40,555 bases of DNA from assembly GCA_949514915.1 (NCBI GenBank), contig CATFLP010000028.1, positions 1 to 40,555 of the forward strand, written 5' to 3'. A program made the position numbers and the translations under genes. Source of the stretch: Methanobacteriota archaeon (GTDB lineage Archaea; Thermoplasmatota; Poseidoniia; Poseidoniales; Poseidoniaceae). Position 1 is the first letter of the stretch. Each line of letters opens with the position of its first letter. The notes beneath the pieces were generated by a model. That model searched no databases. It saw nothing but the letters and a program-made list of their open reading frames with translations, and was not told where the DNA came from. Shown here one piece after another: positions 821-12,276 of the stretch.

Positions 821-929
821 AGCACGTCCGAAACAACTCACAATGATGAACTTGATGTAATTAAGGCACTTAGAAAACAGTGGGTTTAAGGATTCCCTAA
901 ATTTAACGATGTATGTCGGAGAGAGTTAT
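821..929. promoter_or_regulatory. Divergent promoter region, aldehyde dehydrogenase / cdc48
   Basis: This 109-bp intergenic stretch must hold promoters for both neighbours. Candidate AT-rich boxes are TAATTAA near 857 and TAAATTTAA near 894; neither is a clean archaeal TATA box. GGAGAG at about 917-922 is a Shine-Dalgarno site for ATG 930. Assignment of boxes to genes is inference. Confidence 0.35.
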
Positions 930-3179
930 ATGGCTGCTAAAGGTTCGGATACATTACAATTGAGAATTGCAAAAGCAATACCTAGTGATGTAGGTTTTGG
1001 GAGAGCTAGGATTTCAAGTGATAATGAACTTGGATTAAAACCTGGAGATATTATTGAAATTAAGGGAGAAAATGGATTAACTGCTGCAACATATTGGAGA
1101 AGCCGACCAGAAGATAGTAAAATGGACATTGTAAGAATTGATGGAATTATTAGAAAAAACGCTGGAGTTTCATTAGGAGATAAGGTAGAAATAAGAAAAG
1201 TAGATGTCGTTCCTTGTAAAAAGTTAGTATTATCTCCAGTGATGGTAAATAAGCCAAATAAGAAACCATCTGCAATGCAATTTGGCCCAAATATAGAAGG
1301 TTTCGCTCGAAGAGGTTTGAATAAAAGGCCCATTGTTGCAGGAGATAGAATATTTATTCCAGGAATTACATTATTTGCTGAAACATTACCTTTTGCTGTA
1401 AGGTCTACAACACCTAAAGGGATTGTACAAGTATTGCCAGAAACTGAAATAGTAATCAAAGAAGAACAGTTTGACGAAGAATCATCTGCAGATTCGGAAG
1501 GAATTACTTATGAAGATATAGGAGGTATTGGTAATCAACTACAAAAAGTTCGAGAAATGATAGAACTACCATTGAAACACCCAGAATTATTCAGAAGATT
1601 GGGAATAAGTCCACCTAAAGGAGTTTTATTACATGGCCCACCTGGAACTGGAAAAACAATGATAGCAAAAGCAGTTGCAACAGAGACAAATGCTCATTTT
1701 AAATCAATTAATGGTCCTGAAATAATTAGTAAATATTATGGTGAATCAGAAAAACAACTTAGAGAAATTTTTGACGATGCAGCTGAAAATTCACCTGCAA
1801 TTGTATTTGTAGATGAATTGGATAGTATCGCTCCAAAACGTGAAGATGTTACTGGGGAAGTTGAAAGAAGAGTTGTGGCACAATTGTTAACTTTAATGGA
1901 TGGAATGCAAGGAAGGGACAACATTGTCGTAATTGGTGCAACTAATAGAAGAGATGCAATAGATCCTGCTTTAAGAAGGCCAGGAAGATTTGATAGAGAA
2001 ATCGAAGTAGGGGTTCCAGATAGAAATGGCAGGGCTGAAATTGTAGATGTACATACAAGAGGAATGCCATTAAGTGATGATTTTGACATAGAATGGATTT
2101 TAGAAAATACTTATGGATTTGTAGGTGCAGATGTTTCAGCATTAGTTAGGGAAGCTGCAATGAAGGCATTACGAAGATATCTTCCAGAAATAGATTTAGA
2201 TGCAGAAGTAATTCCTCCAGAAGTATTAGAAAAAATGGAAGTAATTATGGATGATTTCAAATTAGCGATTAGAGAAGTTGAACCTAGTGCACTACGTGAA
2301 ATTTATGTTGAAGTGCCAGAAACAGGATGGGATCAAGTTGGGGGCTTAGAAGAAATTAAAAATAGATTAAAGGAAAGTGTGGAATGGCCTTTAACAAAAC
2401 CCGAATTGTTTGAACATTTTGGAATTAAACCTCCGAGAGGGATTGTATTATTTGGAGCACCAGGAACTGGAAAAACATTGTTGGCCAAAGCAATAGCAAA
2501 TGAAGCTAAAGCAAATTTTATTTCAGTTAAAGGGCCTGAAATGATTAGTAAATGGGTTGGAGAATCAGAAAGAGGAATTAGAGAGATTTTTAAGAAAGCA
2601 AAGCAGGCATCACCATCAATAATTTTCTTAGATGAATTTGAAAGTATTGCTAATGCAAGGTCTTCTTCGGGGATGGACGGAGGAAGTTCCCAATCAGGAA
2701 ACAGGGTGGTAAACCAATTACTGGCAAGTATGGATGGTATAGAATCTTTAGATGGAGTAATTGTTGTCGCAGCTACGAATAGACCTGAAATGATTGATCC
2801 AGCATTAATTCGTAGTGGTAGATTTGAAAGAGTTTTACACGTACCTCCTCCAGATTCAAAAGCAATCAAGGAAATTTTTTCTATTCACACAGAGGGTATG
2901 CCTTTAGGTAAATTCAATTTGGCTGATATTTCAAAGAAAATGAGTGGATATACGGGTGCAGATGTAGAATCCGTATGTAGGGAAGCGGCTCTAACTGCTA
3001 TGAGGGAATCCAAGAAAACAGTTACAAAGAAACATTTTGAAACAGCATTAGGAATGGTAAGGCCTACTGTTAATGATGATATGTTAGAATATTATAAGAA
3101 AATGGAGTCTTTACTAGTTAGTGGGCTATCTACAGTTCGTAGAGGAAAGGACACCCAAAGAGGCATGGAATCAGTTTGA
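930..3179 (+). CDS. Cdc48/VAT-type AAA+ ATPase (two AAA domains)
   Basis: The product unfolds proteins with ATP, usually as a hexamer feeding substrates to the proteasome or dismantling complexes. About 749 residues: an N-domain (double-psi barrel plus second lobe, residues 1-190), D1 with Walker A GPPGTGKT (about 236) and Walker B FVDELDS (about 293), and D2 with Walker A GAPGTGKT (about 508) and Walker B FLDEFES (about 567). Arginine-finger motifs RRPGRFDR and RSGRFER are present. Length is normal for archaeal VAT. The track starts at 909, but ATG 930 has GGAGAG upstream and gives the usual N-terminus, so I prefer it. D2 is slightly unusual: GAPGTGKT instead of GPPGTGKT, and DEFES instead of DEIDS. 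Its stop TGA overlaps a GAGGTGA site serving the next ORF. Confidence 0.96.
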
Positions 3180-3189
3180 GGTGAGATAA

Positions 3190-3435
3190 ATTAGTATTAC
3201 TGTTTTTGGATATGAACTTGTAGGTAGAGATGTTTACGATAGAGGTGAAGAATTATTAGGAATTGTTACTGAGATTCATATTAATTATGGTAATGGAAAT
3301 GTAGAATTTATTTGTGTTAAATTAGTAAATGGGATTAATTCAGATAAATTACCTTGGAACGTTACTGATGATGTCGTACAGGTTCCCCCAAGTGAAATAG
3401 ATCGGATAGAAGGCTCAATTTATCTAAGAAGATAG
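3190..3435 (+). CDS. Small PRC-barrel-like protein with apparent ATT start
   Basis: This ORF is missing from the track. The frame from 3190 to TAG 3433-3435 encodes 81 residues beginning ISITVFGYELVGRDVYDRG and ending IEGSIYLRR. The opening resembles PRC-barrel domains (a G-x-V-x-D-x-x-G core followed by G-x-V-x-x-I), small beta-barrels that mediate RNA or protein contacts. An in-frame TAA at 3187-3189 blocks extension upstream, and I find no in-frame ATG, GTG or TTG. However, a full GAGGTGA site (3178-3184) overlaps the Cdc48 stop and lies exactly 5 nt before ATT 3190, the same spacing as other genes here. Translation from ATT, coupled to Cdc48, is therefore the simplest reading. A sequencing error in the start codon is the alternative. 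Confidence 0.65.
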   Translation: MSITVFGYELVGRDVYDRGEELLGIVTEIHINYGNGNVEFICVKLVNGINSDKLPWNVTDDVVQVPPSEIDRIEGSIYLRR

Positions 3436-3487
3436 TCTAATCATGACCTAGTAAGCGTATTAAGGCAGTCAATACCGTCGCTCTGTT

Positions 3488-3500
3488 AGCGCTTGGCGCT
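3488..3500 (+). promoter_or_regulatory. GC-rich hairpin just before the DUF4350-like gene
   Basis: AGCGC-TTG-GCGCT is a perfect 5-bp stem with a 3-nt loop, ending 2 nt before GTG 3503. It lies in a locally GC-rich patch (3455-3505) of an otherwise AT-rich genome. It could tune translation initiation or be an end-processing hairpin; function is unknown. Confidence 0.35.
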
Positions 3501-3502
3501 GG

Positions 3503-5152
3503 GTGTTAGTGTTGGCCAGAAAGAAATTTAGAAAAATTCAACGCCGTGCCCTTATTTCTAGTTTTTATTTAGCGCTATTATTCCTTGTATGGCTTTTACT
3601 TTCAAGTTATATTAATTTAGGGAATACAAAACAATTATCTGCATATGATGATGATTGGGATGATATTTCCGAGTTTAGAAAAGAGATTTCAAATTTAGGA
3701 ATTGATACTAAAAGTTTAGTTTCAAGTCCTTTATTATTGAATGAAATAGAGAATCCTACGAATACTACATTTGTAATTAGTGGAGTTGAAAAAGATACAT
3801 TTTCATTACCATCTATTGGTTCAGATTCAGGATTTATTAGTTTTAGTGAACCAGAAGGTTATAGTGGCTCTGAAATTTCAGCAATTACAAGTTTTGTAGC
3901 TAGGGGAGGAACTGTAATTGTTTTAGATGATTTTGGCTATTCTAGTGGAATTGCTGATGAAGTAGGGATTAGTTATAGTAATCATCGATTATATGATGAC
4001 GAATATGCTGTAGAATTAGATTATAATTATGTGTGGATGAATATTAGCCAAAATCATACAGATTGGGAGGACTCAGAACAATTTCATATTGGGCATTCAA
4101 GATGGCATCAGGGAACAGATCCAACGGGTACTGGAATGCATCCATGTTCCATATGGTCTGAAAGTGAGATAGTCTTTGCCACTAAAGAAGAAGCAGGTTT
4201 ATGTTCTCATCATTATAATTCTACAAGTAAAATGATTGATTATAGTCCCGATTATAATTTGTTGTTAAATGCCCCTTCTGCATTTGAATCTATTGAATTT
4301 TCAGGTGATTTCTCATATTATGAAGCAGTAGGTCGTTCAAGTCCTCAATCATATTTGGATTTGAATGATGATGGAAAGGTAACTCTTGAAACTGAAACAG
4401 CACAATCTGAAGCAGATGCCCAAGGTCCATTTGATGTATATATTGAAACATGTGATTCATCAGATTGTGCAGATTCTCGAGGAGGTAGAATATATTTTAT
4501 CAGTGATGGAAGTGTATTGATTAATGCAATATATGATTTTGAATCTGCTAATTCAGGAGAATATGATGAAGATGGTAAATCAATTGCAAATATCCCCGTA
4601 AATGATAATAGAAAATGGATTTTAGATGTAATTGCTGAATCTGCATTAACTGCAAATAATTTTACAAATAAAGATGCAATTTTCGCAAGTAGTGATGCCA
4701 TGGTAATTTTTGATGAAAGTAGACATAGTCAAAATGTATTATTTACAGATGCATATAATTTAATTTACTTTTTATTGGTGTATTTAACTGGAGATGGGAT
4801 TGGAATGTTATTATTATTTATTTTATTATTTTTAGCATTTGAAGCAGTTCTAATCAAAAAAACAGACCCTGAACCATGGAGACATATTTTCAATATTATT
4901 TATTATGGGTTTGGAGATGCAAAAAGATATGGATATTATACAAGAACTAACAAAATTAAGCAGGTGTTTTTATCAAGAGTTCGGAATTTAAATGCATTGT
5001 CAAGGGAAGAATTCGATAGAATGCCAGCCCAACAACTACAAGAATTGATAAAAGATCCTCAATTAATAAAATTTGTTTTTGAGAATAAGAAATATGATTT
5101 AGAACAAACAGTTGCAATAGTTAAAAGAATTAAAGCGTGGCAAAAGAGTTGA
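3503..5152 (+). CDS. DUF4350-like membrane protein
   Basis: 549 residues. An N-terminal membrane helix (about 17-40, LALLFLVWLLLSSYI) is followed by a large probably extracytoplasmic part, a second hydrophobic stretch near 420-450 (LVYLTGDGIGMLLLFILLFL), and a cytoplasmic basic C-terminus. The region around residues 85-155 resembles the DUF4350 / glutamine-amidotransferase-like fold: alternating beta strands and the phrase FVARGGTVIVLDDFG. The neighbouring DUF58 gene supports this, since DUF4350 and DUF58 proteins are often co-encoded. The exported part carries a calcium-loop-like DLNDDGKVTLE near residue 287. Starts GTG 3503, GTG 3509 and TTG 3512 are all possible; none has a good Shine-Dalgarno site. 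The role is unknown beyond a likely membrane complex with the DUF58 protein. Confidence 0.7.
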   Translation: MLVLARKKFRKIQRRALISSFYLALLFLVWLLLSSYINLGNTKQLSAYDDDWDDISEFRKEISNLGIDTKSLVSSPLLLNEIENPTNTTFVISGVEKDTFSLPSIGSDSGFISFSEPEGYSGSEISAITSFVARGGTVIVLDDFGYSSGIADEVGISYSNHRLYDDEYAVELDYNYVWMNISQNHTDWEDSEQFHIGHSRWHQGTDPTGTGMHPCSIWSESEIVFATKEEAGLCSHHYNSTSKMIDYSPDYNLLLNAPSAFESIEFSGDFSYYEAVGRSSPQSYLDLNDDGKVTLETETAQSEADAQGPFDVYIETCDSSDCADSRGGRIYFISDGSVLINAIYDFESANSGEYDEDGKSIANIPVNDNRKWILDVIAESALTANNFTNKDAIFASSDAMVIFDESRHSQNVLFTDAYNLIYFLLVYLTGDGIGMLLLFILLFLAFEAVLIKKTDPEPWRHIFNIIYYGFGDAKRYGYYTRTNKIKQVFLSRVRNLNALSREEFDRMPAQQLQELIKDPQLIKFVFENKKYDLEQTVAIVKRIKAWQKS

Positions 5153-5157
5153 TAGTA

Positions 5158-6411
5158 ATGTGGACAAGGAAAGCAGCATTTAGTATTACAGGAGGAATCT
5201 CTCTTGTATTAATAGGAATGATGATTTCTAATTTTCAGTTAATGGTAATTGGATTAACATTTGTAGCATTTACAGTATTAAATGGATGGATAAAAGGTCA
5301 TGGGAATGTTGAGGTCCAAAGAATTTTATCTGCAGATAATTTGTATAAAGGTGATGACTTATTTGTAGAATTAAGAATTACTAATCGTTCTATGAGACGT
5401 ACACAACAATTAGAGATTTATGATAATGTACCACATGAAATGAAGTTAAGAAGTGGTTTAAATTACATGAGAGTTAATTTAGGTCCAGGACAGAGTACAA
5501 GGATAAGATATTCACTAAGGTGCCCATTAAGAGGACATTATTCAATTGGTCCGATTAGCATTAGATTTAGAAATACATTTAATTTATTTGCACAAGAAAT
5601 GTTTGTTAGCCATCATAGTGATTTAATTGTATTTCCACAAGTCAAAGATGTCGAAGAGGCATTTATACGCAGTAGAACTCCTAAAATGTATACTGGTGCA
5701 TCAACATTAAGAACTCCTGGGCCAGGTTCAGAATTTTACAGCCTTAGAGAATATGTGACTGGAGATCCTTTCAAAAATATCAACTGGAAAGCTTTTGCTA
5801 GAACTGGAGAATTAATGGTAAATGAAAAGTGTCGTGACGCTGTAACAGATTTATTCATAATTTTAGATAGTCGAGATATTAGCAGAATTGGAACAGTTCT
5901 AAAGAATCCACTTGAAATGGGAGCAGTTGCCGCAGCTTCTTTAGCAGCATTTTTTATCAAAAGAAGAGACAGTGTTGCGCTTGCAATTTATGATGATGGC
6001 GTATCATATCTTCCTGCAGACACAGGAGACAAACAATATTTCAAAATTTTGAGTAGTTTAGCAGGAGTGGTTCCAAAGGGGAAAATGCCTCTCCAAGCAG
6101 TTACAAATTCTCTTGCACCTAGGTTTAGTAGAGGTTCTCCAGTATTTATTATTAGCAGTATTGAGGGAGATGGAACAGTACCTAATGCAGTACGTGATTT
6201 AGTTGGGAGAGGACATGAAGTTACAATATTATCACCTTCAAGTCTTGACTTTGAAAGGTTGGTAAGTAGGATTCCTCGAATGAGTTATGAAGTTCTCAAA
6301 TTAGAGCGTCAAAATAGACTGACGGGATTAGCAGGCTTTGGAGCATCAGTTATTGATTGGATGCCAGATGTTGAATTATCTCAAGCATTACTGCAAGTAA
6401 AGGACATTTGA
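5158..6411 (+). CDS. DUF58 family protein
   Basis: About 417 residues. Two N-terminal membrane segments (FSITGGISLVLIGMMI and LMVIGLTFVAFTVL) precede an Ig-like/beta region and the DUF58 signature YVTGDPFKNINWKAFART near residue 200, followed by NEKC and a vWA-like strand LFIILDSRD. DUF58 proteins usually sit beside a MoxR AAA+ ATPase and transglutaminase or DUF4350 proteins, acting in envelope assembly or complex maturation. Here the neighbour is DUF4350-like but no MoxR is seen in the window. The track begins at GTG 5137, which would overlap the upstream gene; ATG 5158, 5 nt after that gene's TGA, gives a natural N-terminus. The exact biochemical role of the family is not established. Confidence 0.88.
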   Translation: MWTRKAAFSITGGISLVLIGMMISNFQLMVIGLTFVAFTVLNGWIKGHGNVEVQRILSADNLYKGDDLFVELRITNRSMRRTQQLEIYDNVPHEMKLRSGLNYMRVNLGPGQSTRIRYSLRCPLRGHYSIGPISIRFRNTFNLFAQEMFVSHHSDLIVFPQVKDVEEAFIRSRTPKMYTGASTLRTPGPGSEFYSLREYVTGDPFKNINWKAFARTGELMVNEKCRDAVTDLFIILDSRDISRIGTVLKNPLEMGAVAAASLAAFFIKRRDSVALAIYDDGVSYLPADTGDKQYFKILSSLAGVVPKGKMPLQAVTNSLAPRFSRGSPVFIISSIEGDGTVPNAVRDLVGRGHEVTILSPSSLDFERLVSRIPRMSYEVLKLERQNRLTGLAGFGASVIDWMPDVELSQALLQVKDI

Positions 6412-6423
6412 GGTGTATTAAAT

Positions 6424-7617
6424 ATGGCAGATGATGTACAACCCCAACAAGAAGGAATGCGAACATTACATTTGAGGTTATTAAGAATTCAATGGCAAGT
6501 TGTAACGTTACAAGTGATTAGTACTATTGCGTTGCTGTGGATGTATCTTAAAATGGTTGATTTGTATATTGTTGATTCAATAGATCATGCTCTTGCAATA
6601 GAATTTTTCGACACTCAATTAAGAACTGCTAATTTAGAAATGCCTTTACCTGCTTGGTTAACTGGGGAAGATGCTATTGGATTAACAAAGTTCTATCCAA
6701 TAATGGTATTGAGTATTGTAATTGGTGGAGGAATTGCTACATTAACATTTCAAAATCCTGTAATTCAACGTAGGGTTCGATTAGGATTACTCTTGGCATT
6801 TGTGATTTGGTTATTTGGCCCATTTATGATTAAATGGTTATTTTCAAATTTTGGAAAAGGAGAATGGTGGATTCCTCCTGATGATTCAGTAGAATCTCTT
6901 TTCAAAGGAGTAATTGTGGTATTGGAAGTAATATTAATTGGAATTTATATTATTCCTTTAGTATTAGGAATTCGCGGTATTTGGGGTCTTTCAAAGAATG
7001 CTATAGCTTGGTCAACTGGAATAATGCTATTATTTTTAATCTTACATGCATTATTAACATTCCAAATTGTAGAAGATTTATTATTTGGAGTAACAGGAGA
7101 TGGATTAAAGAAAATACCCTCATTAGCAGGAGAACCAACAATTTTAGGATTAATTAGTCCAAATCAATTTAGTCTTTTACAACTTTCATTGTTATTGATA
7201 ATCTTCCAAGAATCGTCAATGGGTGTTATAAGATATCTTGAATATGCATTTAGATTACCAGAAACATGCAAAAAAGATCCTGAATATGTCACTCAATTTT
7301 ATAATTTATTAAATGGTCATATGATTCAAACAATAGTTTTAATGAGTCTATGCGGAATTACTACAATCATTGCTTTGGGATTCCATACTCTTCTTTTATC
7401 TATTGTAGCAGCTTTACCTGGTGATGGTCAATGGGCATATCAGATTCAAGAATCTATTGAACTTGAATTGACTTATGGTTTGGTCATTTCAGCAATGTTA
7501 TTTTTATTATTATTAGCTGGTTTAAGGTACATTTTACCATGGCAAAGAATAAGTGGAATAATCGAATCATTATATCAAAAAAGAGACGAGGTTTCTCCTC
7601 CTCAAGAAGAATATTAA
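6424..7617 (+). CDS. Polytopic membrane protein of unknown family
   Basis: I do not recognise this 397-residue protein. It shows about eight membrane helices: near residues 26-48, 90-112, 120-142, 162-186, 192-222, 240-265, 295-325 and 340-370. The N-terminus (MADDVQPQQEG) and C-terminus (QKRDEVSPPQEEY) are hydrophilic. No transporter or enzyme motif is evident. The GAGGTG site overlaps the stop TGA of the DUF58 gene, 12 nt before ATG, so it is very likely co-expressed with DUF4350 and DUF58 and may be the membrane core of that module. Its stop shares a TTAA with the stop of the convergent gene. Confidence 0.7.
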   Translation: MADDVQPQQEGMRTLHLRLLRIQWQVVTLQVISTIALLWMYLKMVDLYIVDSIDHALAIEFFDTQLRTANLEMPLPAWLTGEDAIGLTKFYPIMVLSIVIGGGIATLTFQNPVIQRRVRLGLLLAFVIWLFGPFMIKWLFSNFGKGEWWIPPDDSVESLFKGVIVVLEVILIGIYIIPLVLGIRGIWGLSKNAIAWSTGIMLLFLILHALLTFQIVEDLLFGVTGDGLKKIPSLAGEPTILGLISPNQFSLLQLSLLLIIFQESSMGVIRYLEYAFRLPETCKKDPEYVTQFYNLLNGHMIQTIVLMSLCGITTIIALGFHTLLLSIVAALPGDGQWAYQIQESIELELTYGLVISAMLFLLLLAGLRYILPWQRISGIIESLYQKRDEVSPPQEEY

Positions 7618-7865
7618 TTATTAAAATACTGAATAATTCTTCCAATTATTTCAGCAAGTGATAGTGCAAATAATGGAGCCAAACAAATTCCAAATAAGAT
7701 ATTCAATCCTTTTGATAATTCTAAATTATTTGAAATTAATATTATTAGTGAAATAGAAATAATTATTGAAAAAATCAAACCAAAACGTTCTAGATAAATG
7801 GGGTATTTTTCCCCTAATGTTTCAGTTCTCCCCATTAATGTGAGCTGATTTAGCTCTTTATCCAT
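7614..7865 (-). CDS. Small membrane protein downstream of the coiled-coil gene
   Basis: 83 residues, family unknown. A hydrophilic N-terminus (MDKELNQLTLMG) is followed by two membrane helices (FGLIFSIIISISLIILI and GLNILFGICLAPLFALSLAEII). The track start at 7874 is a GTG that belongs to the Shine-Dalgarno sequence itself; ATG 7865 lies 5 nt after GAGGTGA and is the better start. That site overlaps the stop codon of the upstream coiled-coil gene, so the two are probably translationally coupled. This protein could anchor the coiled-coil/Roadblock assembly to the membrane; this is inference from position. Confidence 0.65.
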   Translation of the reverse strand: MDKELNQLTLMGRTETLGEKYPIYLERFGLIFSIIISISLIILISNNLELSKGLNILFGICLAPLFALSLAEIIGRIIQYFNN

Positions 7866-7875
7866 ATAATTCACC

Positions 7876-10800
7876 TCAAATTTCGAAATTATCTAATTCA
7901 TTATTTAATTCATCTAAAGAATCATCATCATCATCATTTTCTGGGTTAATATTTCTCCTTTCCCAAGCATGATCTAATTTTGCTAATTCTGCTTCAATAG
8001 TAACTCTATTATCTTCTTCAAATGATTTTTCTGGTATTTCATCATCGTTTGCTTTTGGAATAGAGACAGTTTCCATTGAAGTCCACCCATCTTCATTGTT
8101 TACTGTATCATTGCTGACTTCAACGCTTTCAGCATTACTAGCATTATGAGGATTTAACTCACGAATAATTTCATCAGATACTGTTGGTCTTTCAGATTCT
8201 AATTTTACATCTTCGTGTGGCAAAAGTCCATCTTCTTGGAATCTCCATAGTGATGTTGGCTTTTTTGAACTAAAGGTAAGGCCAGTGTCATCTAATTGCT
8301 TCATTGCTTCATCTAATGATTTTGCTGTTTTTTCCATGAGTACTGCAGTTCCTGCATCTCCTTCATCTGCTTCAAGATAAATCGAATCCAGAGCAGATTG
8401 TATGGTTTCTCGTAAATTATTTGCAATATGTGGCAATGCTTCAGGTCTATTACACAGTGCTTCAAGTCGGTATAATGTATCTTTAGGAACTCCCAATTCT
8501 TCAAGTTGGGTAATCATTTGTCTCATTTTTCTTAATAGAGTTGTTGATCTTTCAAATTCATCAAGTAATCCTTCTAAATCTAAAACAACTAATTGAACAA
8601 TTTCTTTTAATTTGCTTTCAAGTCTTTGCCTTACTGACCAATTAGTTAATCCTCTAATTGTATTCGCAGTCTCAGGTGTTTGAGATTCTAATAAATCCAT
8701 AACTTCGCTTGATAATAAGTATCTTGGGGTTTTAGCAACATTATCTACATTATGTTGAATAATTGTTAACCCTCTTTCAATGGCTCTATCCATTAATGTT
8801 AAACTAAATCCTAAATCTCTCATTCTATCTAGTCTTTGCATAATTGGTGCTAGGGATGAAAAACCATGATCTTGTCCTAATAGGGCTTGAGCCAATGGTT
8901 CATCCCTTAACTTCGCTCTGATAATTCCAGCTTCGTTTATATCTTCTAGAGCAGCATCATGAGCATCTCTCAATGATTCTGCAGTTGAAATCAAATTATT
9001 TACTTCAGTTTCAGCTTCGGATCTTCTTGCACCTAAATCTCCCAATTCTCTCATTATTCTTCGTCTTTCTTCACCTAATTCTCTAACTTCTGCATGTAGA
9101 TGCCCTAGACGCCTTTCAGAATCAAGGAAATATGCTCTTTCTTCTTCCATTAATTTTCTATGTGATTTTGCTTCAGCATCCAAATCTTCTAGTTCTTTAT
9201 TTTGGCTTTCAATTCTCCTTTCTAGTTCATTAGAAATCGTTGTAGCTTGCCTGTGTCTTTCTCTTTGAGCTTCTAGTTGATCTGCAACCATTCTATGTCT
9301 TCTATCATCAGCATCAATTGATGATCTCAATTGTCTTAATCTAATATCTCCAGCTTCGATTTCTGATTTTAATTGGATTTCTTGTTCTGAAAGTTTGCTA
9401 ACCATTCTTTGTAATTCTTCTCTACTTTCTGATTCTCCGACAGCCTGAGAGAGTTCTTCTATTCTTTTTTCTACTTGATTTTCTAATTCTTTAATTCTTT
9501 GAGTTAGACTTTCATTTCTATTCAATGCTAATTCTTGACCATTTGTGGCTTCTCTCAACTCAATTTTAAGTTGTGAGATTTCATCGACATTATTTGAATT
9601 TAATTTTTGCATTTCAGAGATTCTCACACGCATACCATCAACTTCAACTTTAGAAGCATTATAGGATGCTTTCACATCATCCCTTTGTCTTTCCATTCGC
9701 CCAACTTCTTTAATTAAACGCGCTTGCTCTTGTTTGATTTTATCATATTCACCAGAATCTACAACTGATGTCGGCATTAACATTTTACCAGTTTGTGCTT
9801 TTGGAAGTAGTTTGGCACCTGTAGATTTTTTCTGTTTAAGAGTCCAATTAGTTAAACCTTCATTGAGATCTTCAATTCCAATGGCAAATCCAAACATTTT
9901 CATTAATCTTTTATTAATTTGTTTTTCTCTATCCTTCGATCTTGTTCTGGCTTTAGCAATATTTGTACAAAATGAATTTAAATTAAACTTAGGAGTAGTA
10001 TTAAGGTGATTTTTCAATCTGCCTACTTTTGGTAAGGAGTATAACGTTAATTTTGCTTTAGGTGCAGTTGAATTATAAGCAACTTTAGAAATAGATAGTG
10101 GCTTTTCTGAACGTGCACCAACGGGAATACCATTACAGAGGAGTATGTCTAGGGAATCTTCTTCATTTTCAACTCTAATATAGCCATTGATTTGTTCAGC
10201 ATTTCCTCTAGAAAACATAGAAAGTAGATTATCTAAACCTCCTTTTCTTTCAAGAGTGTTTAACCCTTCTTCAAGCATACTTCCGTCATCGTCAGCGATA
10301 TTTGATGTCGGTTGTGCTTCTAATTTGGCAATTGAATCAATTAATATTGCATCGTGATCTGCTCCATCAGATACCCAGGCAACAACATCTAAATCATCAA
10401 CTCTAATCATCATTAATGATCCATCTTGCATATGCATTGTTACCCTGTTAAGTGTTGGCAATTCTAATTTATTTACGAATTTAGTAGTTCGATCTAATTC
10501 TGTTTTTATTGTTGCTGCAACATCTTCAACTTTCCCAGGCATTTCTCCTTTTGAATGTATGACCATTCCTTGTTGAGACGCTAGGGCGCCGATTACTGAT
10601 GCCTTTTCAGTAAGAGTATCAACAAATGAACTAGCCTGTAATGAGTCAAAACCATCAGTGAATGATTGTCTTGTTGAAACCCATGTTAAAGAATTTAAAT
10701 CATAGAATGCAGCTGGAATTAAAATAGCAACTTCTGCAAATTCTTTTTGTGTCCATGTATGTCTTATTGTTTTCAATTCATTTTTCTTATTTAATTTTTT

Positions 10801-11022
10801 AAGTTCCTCAATGGCATCTTTTGCTCCAACATAATTTTTCTTTTTACCAGATTGAACAATACATCCAACAACTTCCTTACCTGCGATTAGACGATATCCA
10901 CAGGGAGTTTTTGATTTTGGTAAAAAATAACTAATGACTCCATAATCAATTTCGCTACTTTTCATTTCCAGATCTGGTTTTGTACCTTTCTTTTCATTAT
11001 TTCCTATTGGTAAACTAAACAT
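7876..11022 (-). CDS. Large coiled-coil protein with Roadblock-like and DUF4388-like N-terminal regions
   Basis: About 1048 residues, no family I can name as a whole. Residues about 140-238 (ASQQGMVIHSKGEM, then DGSLMMIRVDDLDVVAWVS) read like a Roadblock/LC7 domain. Residues about 260-335 (GGLDNLLSMFSRGNAEQ, LLCNGIPVGAR) resemble the DUF4388 effector domain. Residues about 430-705 are a long heptad-rich coiled coil (RIKELENQVEKRIEELSQ). A helical domain follows (710-900), then an acidic tail ending DDDDDSLDELNNELDNFEI. The motif GLTNWTLKQ before the coil recurs as GLTNWSVRQ after it. The track start 11031 is a GTG inside the AGGTGG Shine-Dalgarno site; ATG 11022 is preferred. It follows a separate Roadblock gene. 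A scaffold or cytoskeleton-like role is inference. Confidence 0.75.
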   Translation of the reverse strand: MFSLPIGNNEKKGTKPDLEMKSSEIDYGVISYFLPKSKTPCGYRLIAGKEVVGCIVQSGKKKNYVGAKDAIEELKKLNKKNELKTIRHTWTQKEFAEVAILIPAAFYDLNSLTWVSTRQSFTDGFDSLQASSFVDTLTEKASVIGALASQQGMVIHSKGEMPGKVEDVAATIKTELDRTTKFVNKLELPTLNRVTMHMQDGSLMMIRVDDLDVVAWVSDGADHDAILIDSIAKLEAQPTSNIADDDGSMLEEGLNTLERKGGLDNLLSMFSRGNAEQINGYIRVENEEDSLDILLCNGIPVGARSEKPLSISKVAYNSTAPKAKLTLYSLPKVGRLKNHLNTTPKFNLNSFCTNIAKARTRSKDREKQINKRLMKMFGFAIGIEDLNEGLTNWTLKQKKSTGAKLLPKAQTGKMLMPTSVVDSGEYDKIKQEQARLIKEVGRMERQRDDVKASYNASKVEVDGMRVRISEMQKLNSNNVDEISQLKIELREATNGQELALNRNESLTQRIKELENQVEKRIEELSQAVGESESREELQRMVSKLSEQEIQLKSEIEAGDIRLRQLRSSIDADDRRHRMVADQLEAQRERHRQATTISNELERRIESQNKELEDLDAEAKSHRKLMEEERAYFLDSERRLGHLHAEVRELGEERRRIMRELGDLGARRSEAETEVNNLISTAESLRDAHDAALEDINEAGIIRAKLRDEPLAQALLGQDHGFSSLAPIMQRLDRMRDLGFSLTLMDRAIERGLTIIQHNVDNVAKTPRYLLSSEVMDLLESQTPETANTIRGLTNWSVRQRLESKLKEIVQLVVLDLEGLLDEFERSTTLLRKMRQMITQLEELGVPKDTLYRLEALCNRPEALPHIANNLRETIQSALDSIYLEADEGDAGTAVLMEKTAKSLDEAMKQLDDTGLTFSSKKPTSLWRFQEDGLLPHEDVKLESERPTVSDEIIRELNPHNASNAESVEVSNDTVNNEDGWTSMETVSIPKANDDEIPEKSFEEDNRVTIEAELAKLDHAWERRNINPENDDDDDSLDELNNELDNFEI

Positions 11023-11031
11023 TTTTTCCAC

Positions 11032-11376
11032 CTATATTAATTGAGCAATTGCTTCTTTTTTTGTATTCAATTCATAACTTAAACGACCCAGATTTGGATT
11101 TTCAGAAGTTAATATTCCAATGTATTTCCGATCGGGTAGTGCGCATAAAAGAATACTTCCATTTGCGGATTCAATCCAACACTGATTTGCATCCCCCATA
11201 TCAAATAATTTAGAACTCATATCGAGTGTTTGTAACAGCCCGCCAAAGTCCATGAATGAAACGTCTTGTCTATTAGTACTATAAGTTTGCATCAATTCAT
11301 TACCAATATTATCGATAATTGCTGCAAATTGAACTCCTGGGATTTGACAAAATGATGCCAATAAACGTTGTAACAT
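11032..11376 (-). CDS. Roadblock/LC7 domain protein
   Basis: 114 residues, matching a single Roadblock/LC7 domain: an initial helix (LLASFCQIPGV), strand FAAIIDNIGNELMQTYS, a middle helix (FGGLLQTLDMSSKLFDM), and the strand pair CWIESANGSILLCALPDRKYIGIL. These proteins dimerise and commonly bind or regulate small GTPases (MglB-MglA in bacteria, many archaeal examples). No GTPase is encoded in the window. The stop TAG overlaps the AGGTGG Shine-Dalgarno site of the downstream coiled-coil gene, so the two are coupled. It is the first gene of its unit; no Shine-Dalgarno site is seen before ATG 11376, so the mRNA may be leaderless. Confidence 0.8.
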   Translation of the reverse strand: MLQRLLASFCQIPGVQFAAIIDNIGNELMQTYSTNRQDVSFMDFGGLLQTLDMSSKLFDMGDANQCWIESANGSILLCALPDRKYIGILTSENPNLGRLSYELNTKKEAIAQLI

Positions 11377-11583: not shown

Positions 11584-12276
11584 ATGGACCCACGAAAAGT
11601 AGTCAAATTAGCTTATGATTCGATAGGTCCTGAATTTGGAAAAAAACGTAAAAATACATGGGACTTTGTAGTAGATTGGTTAGAGAAATTACAATTAAAA
11701 CAAACAGATAGGCCTTTGAAATTATTAATAGCAGGTTGTGGAAATGGAAGACATGTAAAATTGGCAAATGATATGGGCTTTGATGTATTTGCTGTTGATA
11801 TATCCCCTAATATGGTAAGTGCTACAATTCAATCTGAGATTGAAAATGGAAGAGATGGCTCAAATATTTCAGTCTCTGATATTTGTGATTTACCTTTTCC
11901 AGATCATGAATTTGATGCAATAATGTCAATTGCAGTTTTACATCATTTGCCATTTGATTTATGTGAAACAGCATTTTGTGAATTTTCAAGGGTTTCAAGT
12001 ACAAGGGGAGATATTCTGATTTCATGTTGGGATCCTTCAGCACCTTCTGTAGTTAAAGGTAAAAGAGATGCAGAGCAAAAAGATGTTGTATGGGTTTCTT
12101 GGACGTTGCCAGATTCATCAATAGTTTCAAGATATTATCATGTCCCTGAAATAGATGTTAGAATGAAATATTGGGAAGAAATTAAAGGCTTGAAATGTAA
12201 TCATTTTGAATTAAGAAATTTCAATCAATTATTTTATTTTTCTAAGTTAAAATCCCCCGATGAATTGAAGCGTTAG
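11584..12276 (+). CDS. Trm9/ALKBH8-like tRNA wobble-uridine methyltransferase
   Basis: 230 residues, a class I SAM-dependent methyltransferase. The SAM-binding motif is LLIAGCGNGRHV (about 46-57), followed by VFAVDISPNM, DLPFPDHEFDAI and SIAVLHHLPF. The pattern SIAVLHH, then a short W-containing strand (ISCWDPSA), a linker, and VVWVSWTLPDSSIVSRYYHVPE is characteristic of the Trm9 family, which methylates 5-carboxymethyluridine at tRNA position 34. The adjacent Ncs6-like thiolase gene, acting on the same base, strengthens this. Eukaryotic Trm9 needs Trm112; no Trm112-like gene is seen here. A generic methyltransferase remains possible. No Shine-Dalgarno site precedes ATG 11584, suggesting a leaderless or weak start. 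Confidence 0.75.
   Translation: MDPRKVVKLAYDSIGPEFGKKRKNTWDFVVDWLEKLQLKQTDRPLKLLIAGCGNGRHVKLANDMGFDVFAVDISPNMVSATIQSEIENGRDGSNISVSDICDLPFPDHEFDAIMSIAVLHHLPFDLCETAFCEFSRVSSTRGDILISCWDPSAPSVVKGKRDAEQKDVVWVSWTLPDSSIVSRYYHVPEIDVRMKYWEEIKGLKCNHFELRNFNQLFYFSKLKSPDELKR

Follow-up and report, generated by a model that had tools for sequence, protein, structure and literature searches.

A Roadblock protein, a coiled-coil protein of fixed rod length and a two-helix membrane protein encoded side by side in Poseidoniales: a possible membrane-associated spacer

The locus and its gene organization

The window analyzed here, meaning the whole stretch of 40,555 nucleotides, belongs to a fragmented 1.79-Mb genome (130 contigs) of Marine Group II, order Poseidoniales. 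Three closely packed genes on its reverse strand encode a single-domain Roadblock/LC7 protein (ROBL), a multidomain coiled-coil protein (BIG) and a small two-helix membrane protein (Table 1), with the start of BIG directly abutting the stop of ROBL on neighbouring bases. An earlier reading of this DNA, made from the letters alone and referred to below as the sequence-only reading, had described three tightly coupled genes, the largest of them coding for a giant protein of 1048 residues. The coupling was borne out, as the trio is packed and conserved across the fetched loci, and the giant protein stands as well, while its length has to be corrected to 1051 residues counted from the GTG start.

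In the fetched loci, the distance between ROBL and BIG ranges from -44 to +13 nt and that between BIG and the small gene from -32 to +11 nt, the few large overlaps being due to the choice of start codon. A Roadblock-like ORF lies directly 5' of BIG in the 40 loci read, save for L096, which is a 3.5-kb fragment; a small hydrophobic two-helix ORF follows 3' of BIG in the same loci, save for L075, where none was recognized. Thus, the gene-neighbourhood survey suggested in the sequence-only reading revealed a three-gene order conserved across Poseidoniales loci. The statement in the same reading that no archaeal system of this make-up had been described also holds, as our literature search found none.

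The trio is flanked by genes for CDC48, DUF4350, DUF58, a membrane protein and TtuA. The run of CDC48, DUF4350, DUF58 and membrane-protein genes (window 909-7617) adjoins the cassette site with the cassette present or absent, and its last member (window 6424-7617) matches no Pfam family. In the genus of the window (window, L063 and L064), a methyltransferase gene is located between ROBL and TtuA (window 11584-12276), to which the remaining fetched loci showed no match. The closed MG-II chromosome CM001443 (L065:6800-9975) carries a BIG gene whose tail is truncated by either an in-frame TGA or a frameshift. A promoter scan, which covers bacterial promoters only, gave nothing above chance.

Table 1 Position of the three genes and of the parts of BIG in the window
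Feature	Position	Strand	Remarks
ROBL, Roadblock/LC7 single-domain protein	11032..11376	(-)	ORF of 114 aa
BIG, multidomain coiled-coil protein	7876..11031	(-)	1051 aa, GTG start
BIG residues 24-125, alpha/beta domain, no known family	10657..10962	(-)	AlphaFold2 pLDDT mostly ~90
BIG residues 126-245, internal Roadblock domain	10297..10656	(-)	Profile, Pfam, model topology
BIG residues 250-350, alpha/beta domain	9982..10284	(-)	AlphaFold2 pLDDT ~95
BIG residues 399-425, variable linker	9757..9837	(-)	10 indel intervals in 27 residues, 103 sequences
BIG residues 426-710, coiled coil	8902..9756	(-)	285 residues, no indel in 103/103 sequences
BIG residues 711-945, conserved all-helical domain	8197..8901	(-)	No detectable relatives
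BIG residues 946-1051, acidic length-variable tail	7879..8196	(-)	32 D/E vs 8 K/R
Two-helix membrane protein, ORF	7614..7874	(-)	86 aa from GTG 7874
Two-helix membrane protein, likely form	7614..7865	(-)	83 aa from ATG 7865, per homologues

The stand-alone Roadblock protein

Searched as a single sequence against the PDB, ROBL of the window yields weak matches to Rv3364c (9hef, 9.8e-5) and to MKD1-RB (7yh1, 8e-4), and it stays below detection in Pfam. A profile of 30 ROBL relatives matches 7f8m, the Thorarchaeota Roadblock Thor-RB, with 3.3e-9, followed by 7yh1 (3.1e-7) and MglC (4e-4), and Pfam Robl_LC7 is found in 15 of the 30 relatives (best 9e-8). For modelling with AlphaFold2, an in-frame read-through of ROBL and BIG 1-425 was used, in which the intergenic TAG was entered as Gly, together with 57 sequences; this composite reached a mean pLDDT of 85.4 and a pTM of 0.70. 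ROBL displays the topology alpha-beta-beta-alpha-beta-beta-beta-alpha in the model, with elements H2-10, E15-21, E27-33, H44-57, E65-70, E73-80, E84-90 and H96-114. Foldseek matches the model to Roadblock structures at a probability of 1.00 and a target TM of up to 0.77, the best solved matches being Roadblock proteins of Asgard archaea, MglB and MP1/p14. Hence, the stand-alone Roadblock/LC7 protein recognized in the sequence-only reading is confirmed by profile and fold.

A second, divergent Roadblock protein is encoded in genera g2 and g16 (L215:2297-2614 (-), L216:5288-5635 (+) and L217:5454-5813 (-)). The respective loci adjoin coiled-coil genes (DUF7121 in g2), and the one in g2 additionally carries a Cid1-like nucleotidyltransferase and a GNAT gene; no GTPase was found among the neighbouring genes examined in g2 and g16.

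Domains of the N-terminal half of BIG

The middle one of three alpha/beta domains in the N-terminal half of BIG is itself of the Roadblock type, as had been proposed earlier. In profile searches of the PDB, 3leq ranks first (1e-3), followed by 7f8f (0.014) and then LAMTOR4/5; Pfam Robl_LC7 is detected in 9 of 34 relatives (best 4.8e-4), and residues ~129-240 follow the Roadblock order alpha-beta-beta-alpha-beta-beta-beta-alpha in the AlphaFold2 model. Alignment of the internal domain with the ROBL profile by hhalign is weak and in register (E 0.0019, probability 14%).

The DUF4388-like domain that the sequence-only reading had placed in BIG had to be given up: Pfam and PDB profile searches were negative, though the region forms a folded alpha/beta domain in the model. 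DUF4388/PATAN (PF14332) was matched by no member of either alignment, be it of residues 24-125 or of 250-350, and PDB profile searches with both domains gave no DUF4388 match and, for 24-125, nothing of note. The genome itself holds no detected DUF4388 protein, while the same model was positive in three control genomes. An internal duplication relating the first and third domains was likewise rejected (hhalign E 0.24).

Foldseek matches ROBL plus BIG 1-425 (window 9757-11376) to the tri-longin Rab GEFs Mon1-Ccz1, BLOC-3 and Fuzzy-Inturned at E ~1e-6. As the corresponding TM values are only 0.13-0.19 with an rmsd above 20 A, a shared architecture was rejected and the hits are read as serial matches of roadblock/longin-like domains; by this model comparison, ROBL and BIG 1-425 may have a serial roadblock/longin-like architecture.

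A coiled coil of invariant length

BIG residues 426-710 constitute a coiled coil with a heptad period of 3.50 residues, comprising exactly 285 residues in each of the 103 distinct sequences. The sequence-only reading had correctly identified the coil and estimated it at ~275 residues, which the alignment does not uphold; the fixed length of this heptad coil is new. In the 103 sequences, 10 indel intervals fall in the 27-residue linker, 24 in the three N-terminal domains, 60 in the tail and none in the rod, and anchor residues 509 and 712 are 203 residues apart in 35 of 35 relatives. At the same time, mean pairwise identity over residues 426-500 amounts to 27%, with the best fit at shift 0, i.e. 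in register, in 99 of the 103 sequences. Coiled coils rise by 0.1485 nm per residue, which gives ~42 nm for the fully extended 285-residue coil. Most likely, the coil would be a parallel dimer.

A fixed length combined with a diverging sequence is a recognized mark of spacer coils (PMC5082667), as exemplified by the ROCK2 ruler (PMC4686654), and the rod of BIG fits such a fixed-length spacer in that its length is conserved more than its sequence. Coiled coils in general, however, vary on average 3.6-fold less in length than other regions (PMC5082667), and therefore a fixed length by itself is no proof of a ruler. Dividing the indel rate of the N-terminal domains by 3.6 as a null yardstick, ~5 indel intervals would be expected in the rod. 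Their complete absence is unusual, with a probability of the order of 0.01 in a rough estimate that ignores relatedness.

The C-terminal domain, the acidic tail and the small membrane protein

The far end of BIG is highly conserved, mean column identity over residues 640-950 being 74% among 34 relatives and thus far above that of the N-terminal part. The C-terminal domain is predicted by AlphaFold2 to be all helix (pLDDT 80, pTM 0.56). Foldseek returned no match below E = 1.2 for it, and a viral structure library gave nothing meaningful; a likeness to FliS (E 0.011) was dismissed as too weak. Among the invariant polar residues, Arg, Glu and Asp prevail. As no conserved metal or nucleotide site is discernible among them, the domain would suit a role as binding hub, for which it is a candidate judging from its residue pattern. 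The subsequent tail is acidic, as had already been noted; we count 32 acidic versus 8 basic residues over 946-1051. It closes with short motifs that are conserved and helical, LEAELAxLDxxW and, at the very end, DxLxxLxxxLxxx, with D1020 and L1042 as invariant residues.

The proposed two-helix membrane protein was corroborated, two hydrophobic segments being present in 28 of 29 relatives. Lys and Arg are richer at both ends than in the loop in all 29, and conserved positions comprise a YP near residue 21 and a GRxIQ at the C-terminus. By the positive-inside rule, both conserved ends are predicted to be cytoplasmic.

Distribution and joint inheritance

Homologues of BIG are present in 88 of 146 genomes of the order Poseidoniales, with best E-values from 0 to 1e-91. 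They occur in 72 of 73 genomes of the family of the window (Poseidoniaceae) and in 16 of 73 genomes of the sister family, there in genera g14, g16, g18 and g21. A profile of the most conserved part of BIG found no match among 21 genomes sampled from elsewhere in the class; run against 243 genomes sampled across the phylum, it matched Poseidoniales genomes only. When 85,462 species genomes were scanned, the best 80 of 190 BIG relatives were all titled Poseidoniales or generic Euryarchaeota. Among the genomes sampled, BIG is found only in Poseidoniales and in none of the sister order. Since ROBL and the small protein both evolve fast, many of their relatives are invisible to plain BLAST and were recovered by gene position and alignment.

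In 13 sister-family loci without BIG, the flanking genes stand in unchanged order and only the trio is absent. These cassette-less loci form one clade with support 1.0 in a tree of five flanking proteins, and none of the cassette-lacking genomes tested gave a match to the ROBL profile. Most simply, the entire cassette would have been lost once in the sister family; as a single event, this demonstrates linkage and not repeated co-loss. The trio is inherited as a lineage-specific unit, and most of the sister family can dispense with it. A resembling pattern is reported for oligosaccharide-degradation genes, which occur in MGIIa, here taken to be the family of the window, and within MGIIb in basal clades alone (PMC6336850), and both patterns may reflect one ancestral loss.

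Possible function of the cassette

A Roadblock protein is commonly taken to be the partner of a small GTPase, and the sequence-only reading had envisaged a GTPase encoded elsewhere in the genome. This found no support in searches with Arf-type PF00025 and Roc-type PF08477, each of which was above the Pfam cut-off in 0 of 50 Poseidoniales genomes while control genomes were positive. An MglA would have been caught, as the control sequence, verified against MglA PDB entries, scores 36.3 bits with PF00025 at a cut-off of 22.3. A GTPase too divergent for both families is possible.

We give a probability of roughly 0.5 to the cassette being a membrane-associated scaffold that acts as a molecular spacer independently of a GTPase. 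The N-terminal half of BIG would provide a platform of three alpha/beta domains with the Roadblock domain in its middle. Roadblock domains usually pair, and ROBL would probably do so either with the internal Roadblock domain of BIG or with itself. The rod of ~42 nm would keep this platform apart from the conserved helical hub at the C-terminal side, and the small two-helix protein may hold the assembly at the cytoplasmic membrane by way of its ends, which are conserved and face the cytoplasm by prediction. A small GTPase would not be needed, because none is detectable. More tentative is the wider proposal that Marine Group II has an architecture system, hitherto undescribed and independent of a GTPase, in which a Roadblock platform and an orphan hub, kept ~42 nm apart by a ruler coil and attached to the membrane via the two-helix protein, would set an intracellular distance.

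Rather unlikely is a role as anchoring or positioning factor for the archaellum or an archaellum-like adhesion filament. The archaellum operon occurs in all Poseidoniaceae and in about half of the genera of Thalassarchaeaceae (PMC6461757), and archaellin and cassette are both present in all genera of the window's family as well as in g14 and g18. In the sister family, however, g16 possesses the cassette without detected archaellin, whereas g13 and g20 possess archaellin without the cassette, which moreover lies outside any archaellum locus. As cassette and archaellin differ in their distribution within the sister family, the link was rejected.

A polarity or cytoskeletal role, as put forward in the sequence-only reading, is a guess. 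Its explicit form, a GTPase-driven switch of the MglA/MglB kind whose Roadblock parts serve as GAP or GEF and whose coil positions the switch in the cell, appears improbable. The nearest solved relatives include MglB, MglC and Asgard Roadblocks, and small GTPases are frequent binding partners of Roadblock platforms (PMC10933270); against this stand the negative GTPase searches described above and the lack of a GTPase among the conserved neighbours of the trio and the genes examined at the second Roadblock locus.

There is also little to be expected from a cytoplasmic sensory or signalling platform resembling the actinobacterial conservon CvnA-D, with BIG as effector scaffold. Both Roadblock parts have CvnB5 (3leq) among their top profile matches, Rv3364c (9hef) is the best single-sequence match of ROBL, and CvnB, too, is a Roadblock protein encoded in a conserved cassette of several genes. 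The identified neighbours of the present cassette, however, include no histidine kinase, DUF742 or GTPase gene, and its small membrane protein is without a sensor domain. Finally, a chromosome-organizing SMC- or Rad50-like protein is very improbable, as the match of NCBIfam SMC_prok_B to BIG residues 428-686 (E = 5e-10) is confined to the coiled coil and reaches 37.8 bits against a cut-off of 567, and Pfam finds no ABC ATPase head, the ends of BIG being Roadblock and helical domains instead; membership in this family was rejected.

Comparison with known systems and significance

With regard to the favoured spacer scaffold, several known systems share individual traits with the cassette. The Asgard Roadblocks (MK-D1 Roadblock3 9jue, MKD1-RB 7yh1, Thor-RB 7f8m) have the same fold and are the best Foldseek and profile matches. 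To our knowledge, they have no coiled-coil partner or membrane cassette of such kind. In contrast to the cassette, they consist of a single domain, form homodimers and occur in genomes with many small GTPases (PMC10933270). MglB/MglA of Myxococcus and Thermus likewise combine a small Roadblock protein with the idea of a membrane-associated scaffold, whereas a cognate MglA-like GTPase was undetected in the 50 Poseidoniales genomes tested. We know of no link of MglB to a fixed-length coiled-coil protein with a Roadblock domain of its own.

In Ragulator (LAMTOR1-5), several Roadblock domains are assembled on one membrane-anchored scaffold, which serves the Rag GTPases and is anchored via lipidated LAMTOR1. 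The cassette resembles it in having multiple Roadblock domains, and the profile search with the internal BIG domain gives LAMTOR4/5 as weak matches. It differs from Ragulator in its 285-residue rod and in its anchor, which would be a separate two-helix protein. Golgins, Ndc80 and ROCK2, in turn, are similar in that a rod whose length is kept more than its sequence joins functional ends (PMC5082667, PMC4686654), but they are eukaryotic and their end domains unrelated. The ROCK2 coil varies with a standard deviation of ~3.5 nm among orthologues (PMC4686654), while the BIG rod is identical in length in 103 sequences, all from one order.

A conserved Roadblock module in genomes without detectable Ras-like GTPase suggests that the link to a GTPase can be lost or was not always present, a point of relevance to how Ragulator-like platforms arose. 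Marine Group II ranks among the most abundant surface-ocean archaea, and very little is known of its cell architecture; the literature found reports no cultured member. If the proposed architecture system is real, these cells would hold a fixed distance, for example from the membrane to the chromosome, a filament base or an internal assembly. The rod of invariant length offers a concrete object to express, image and measure.
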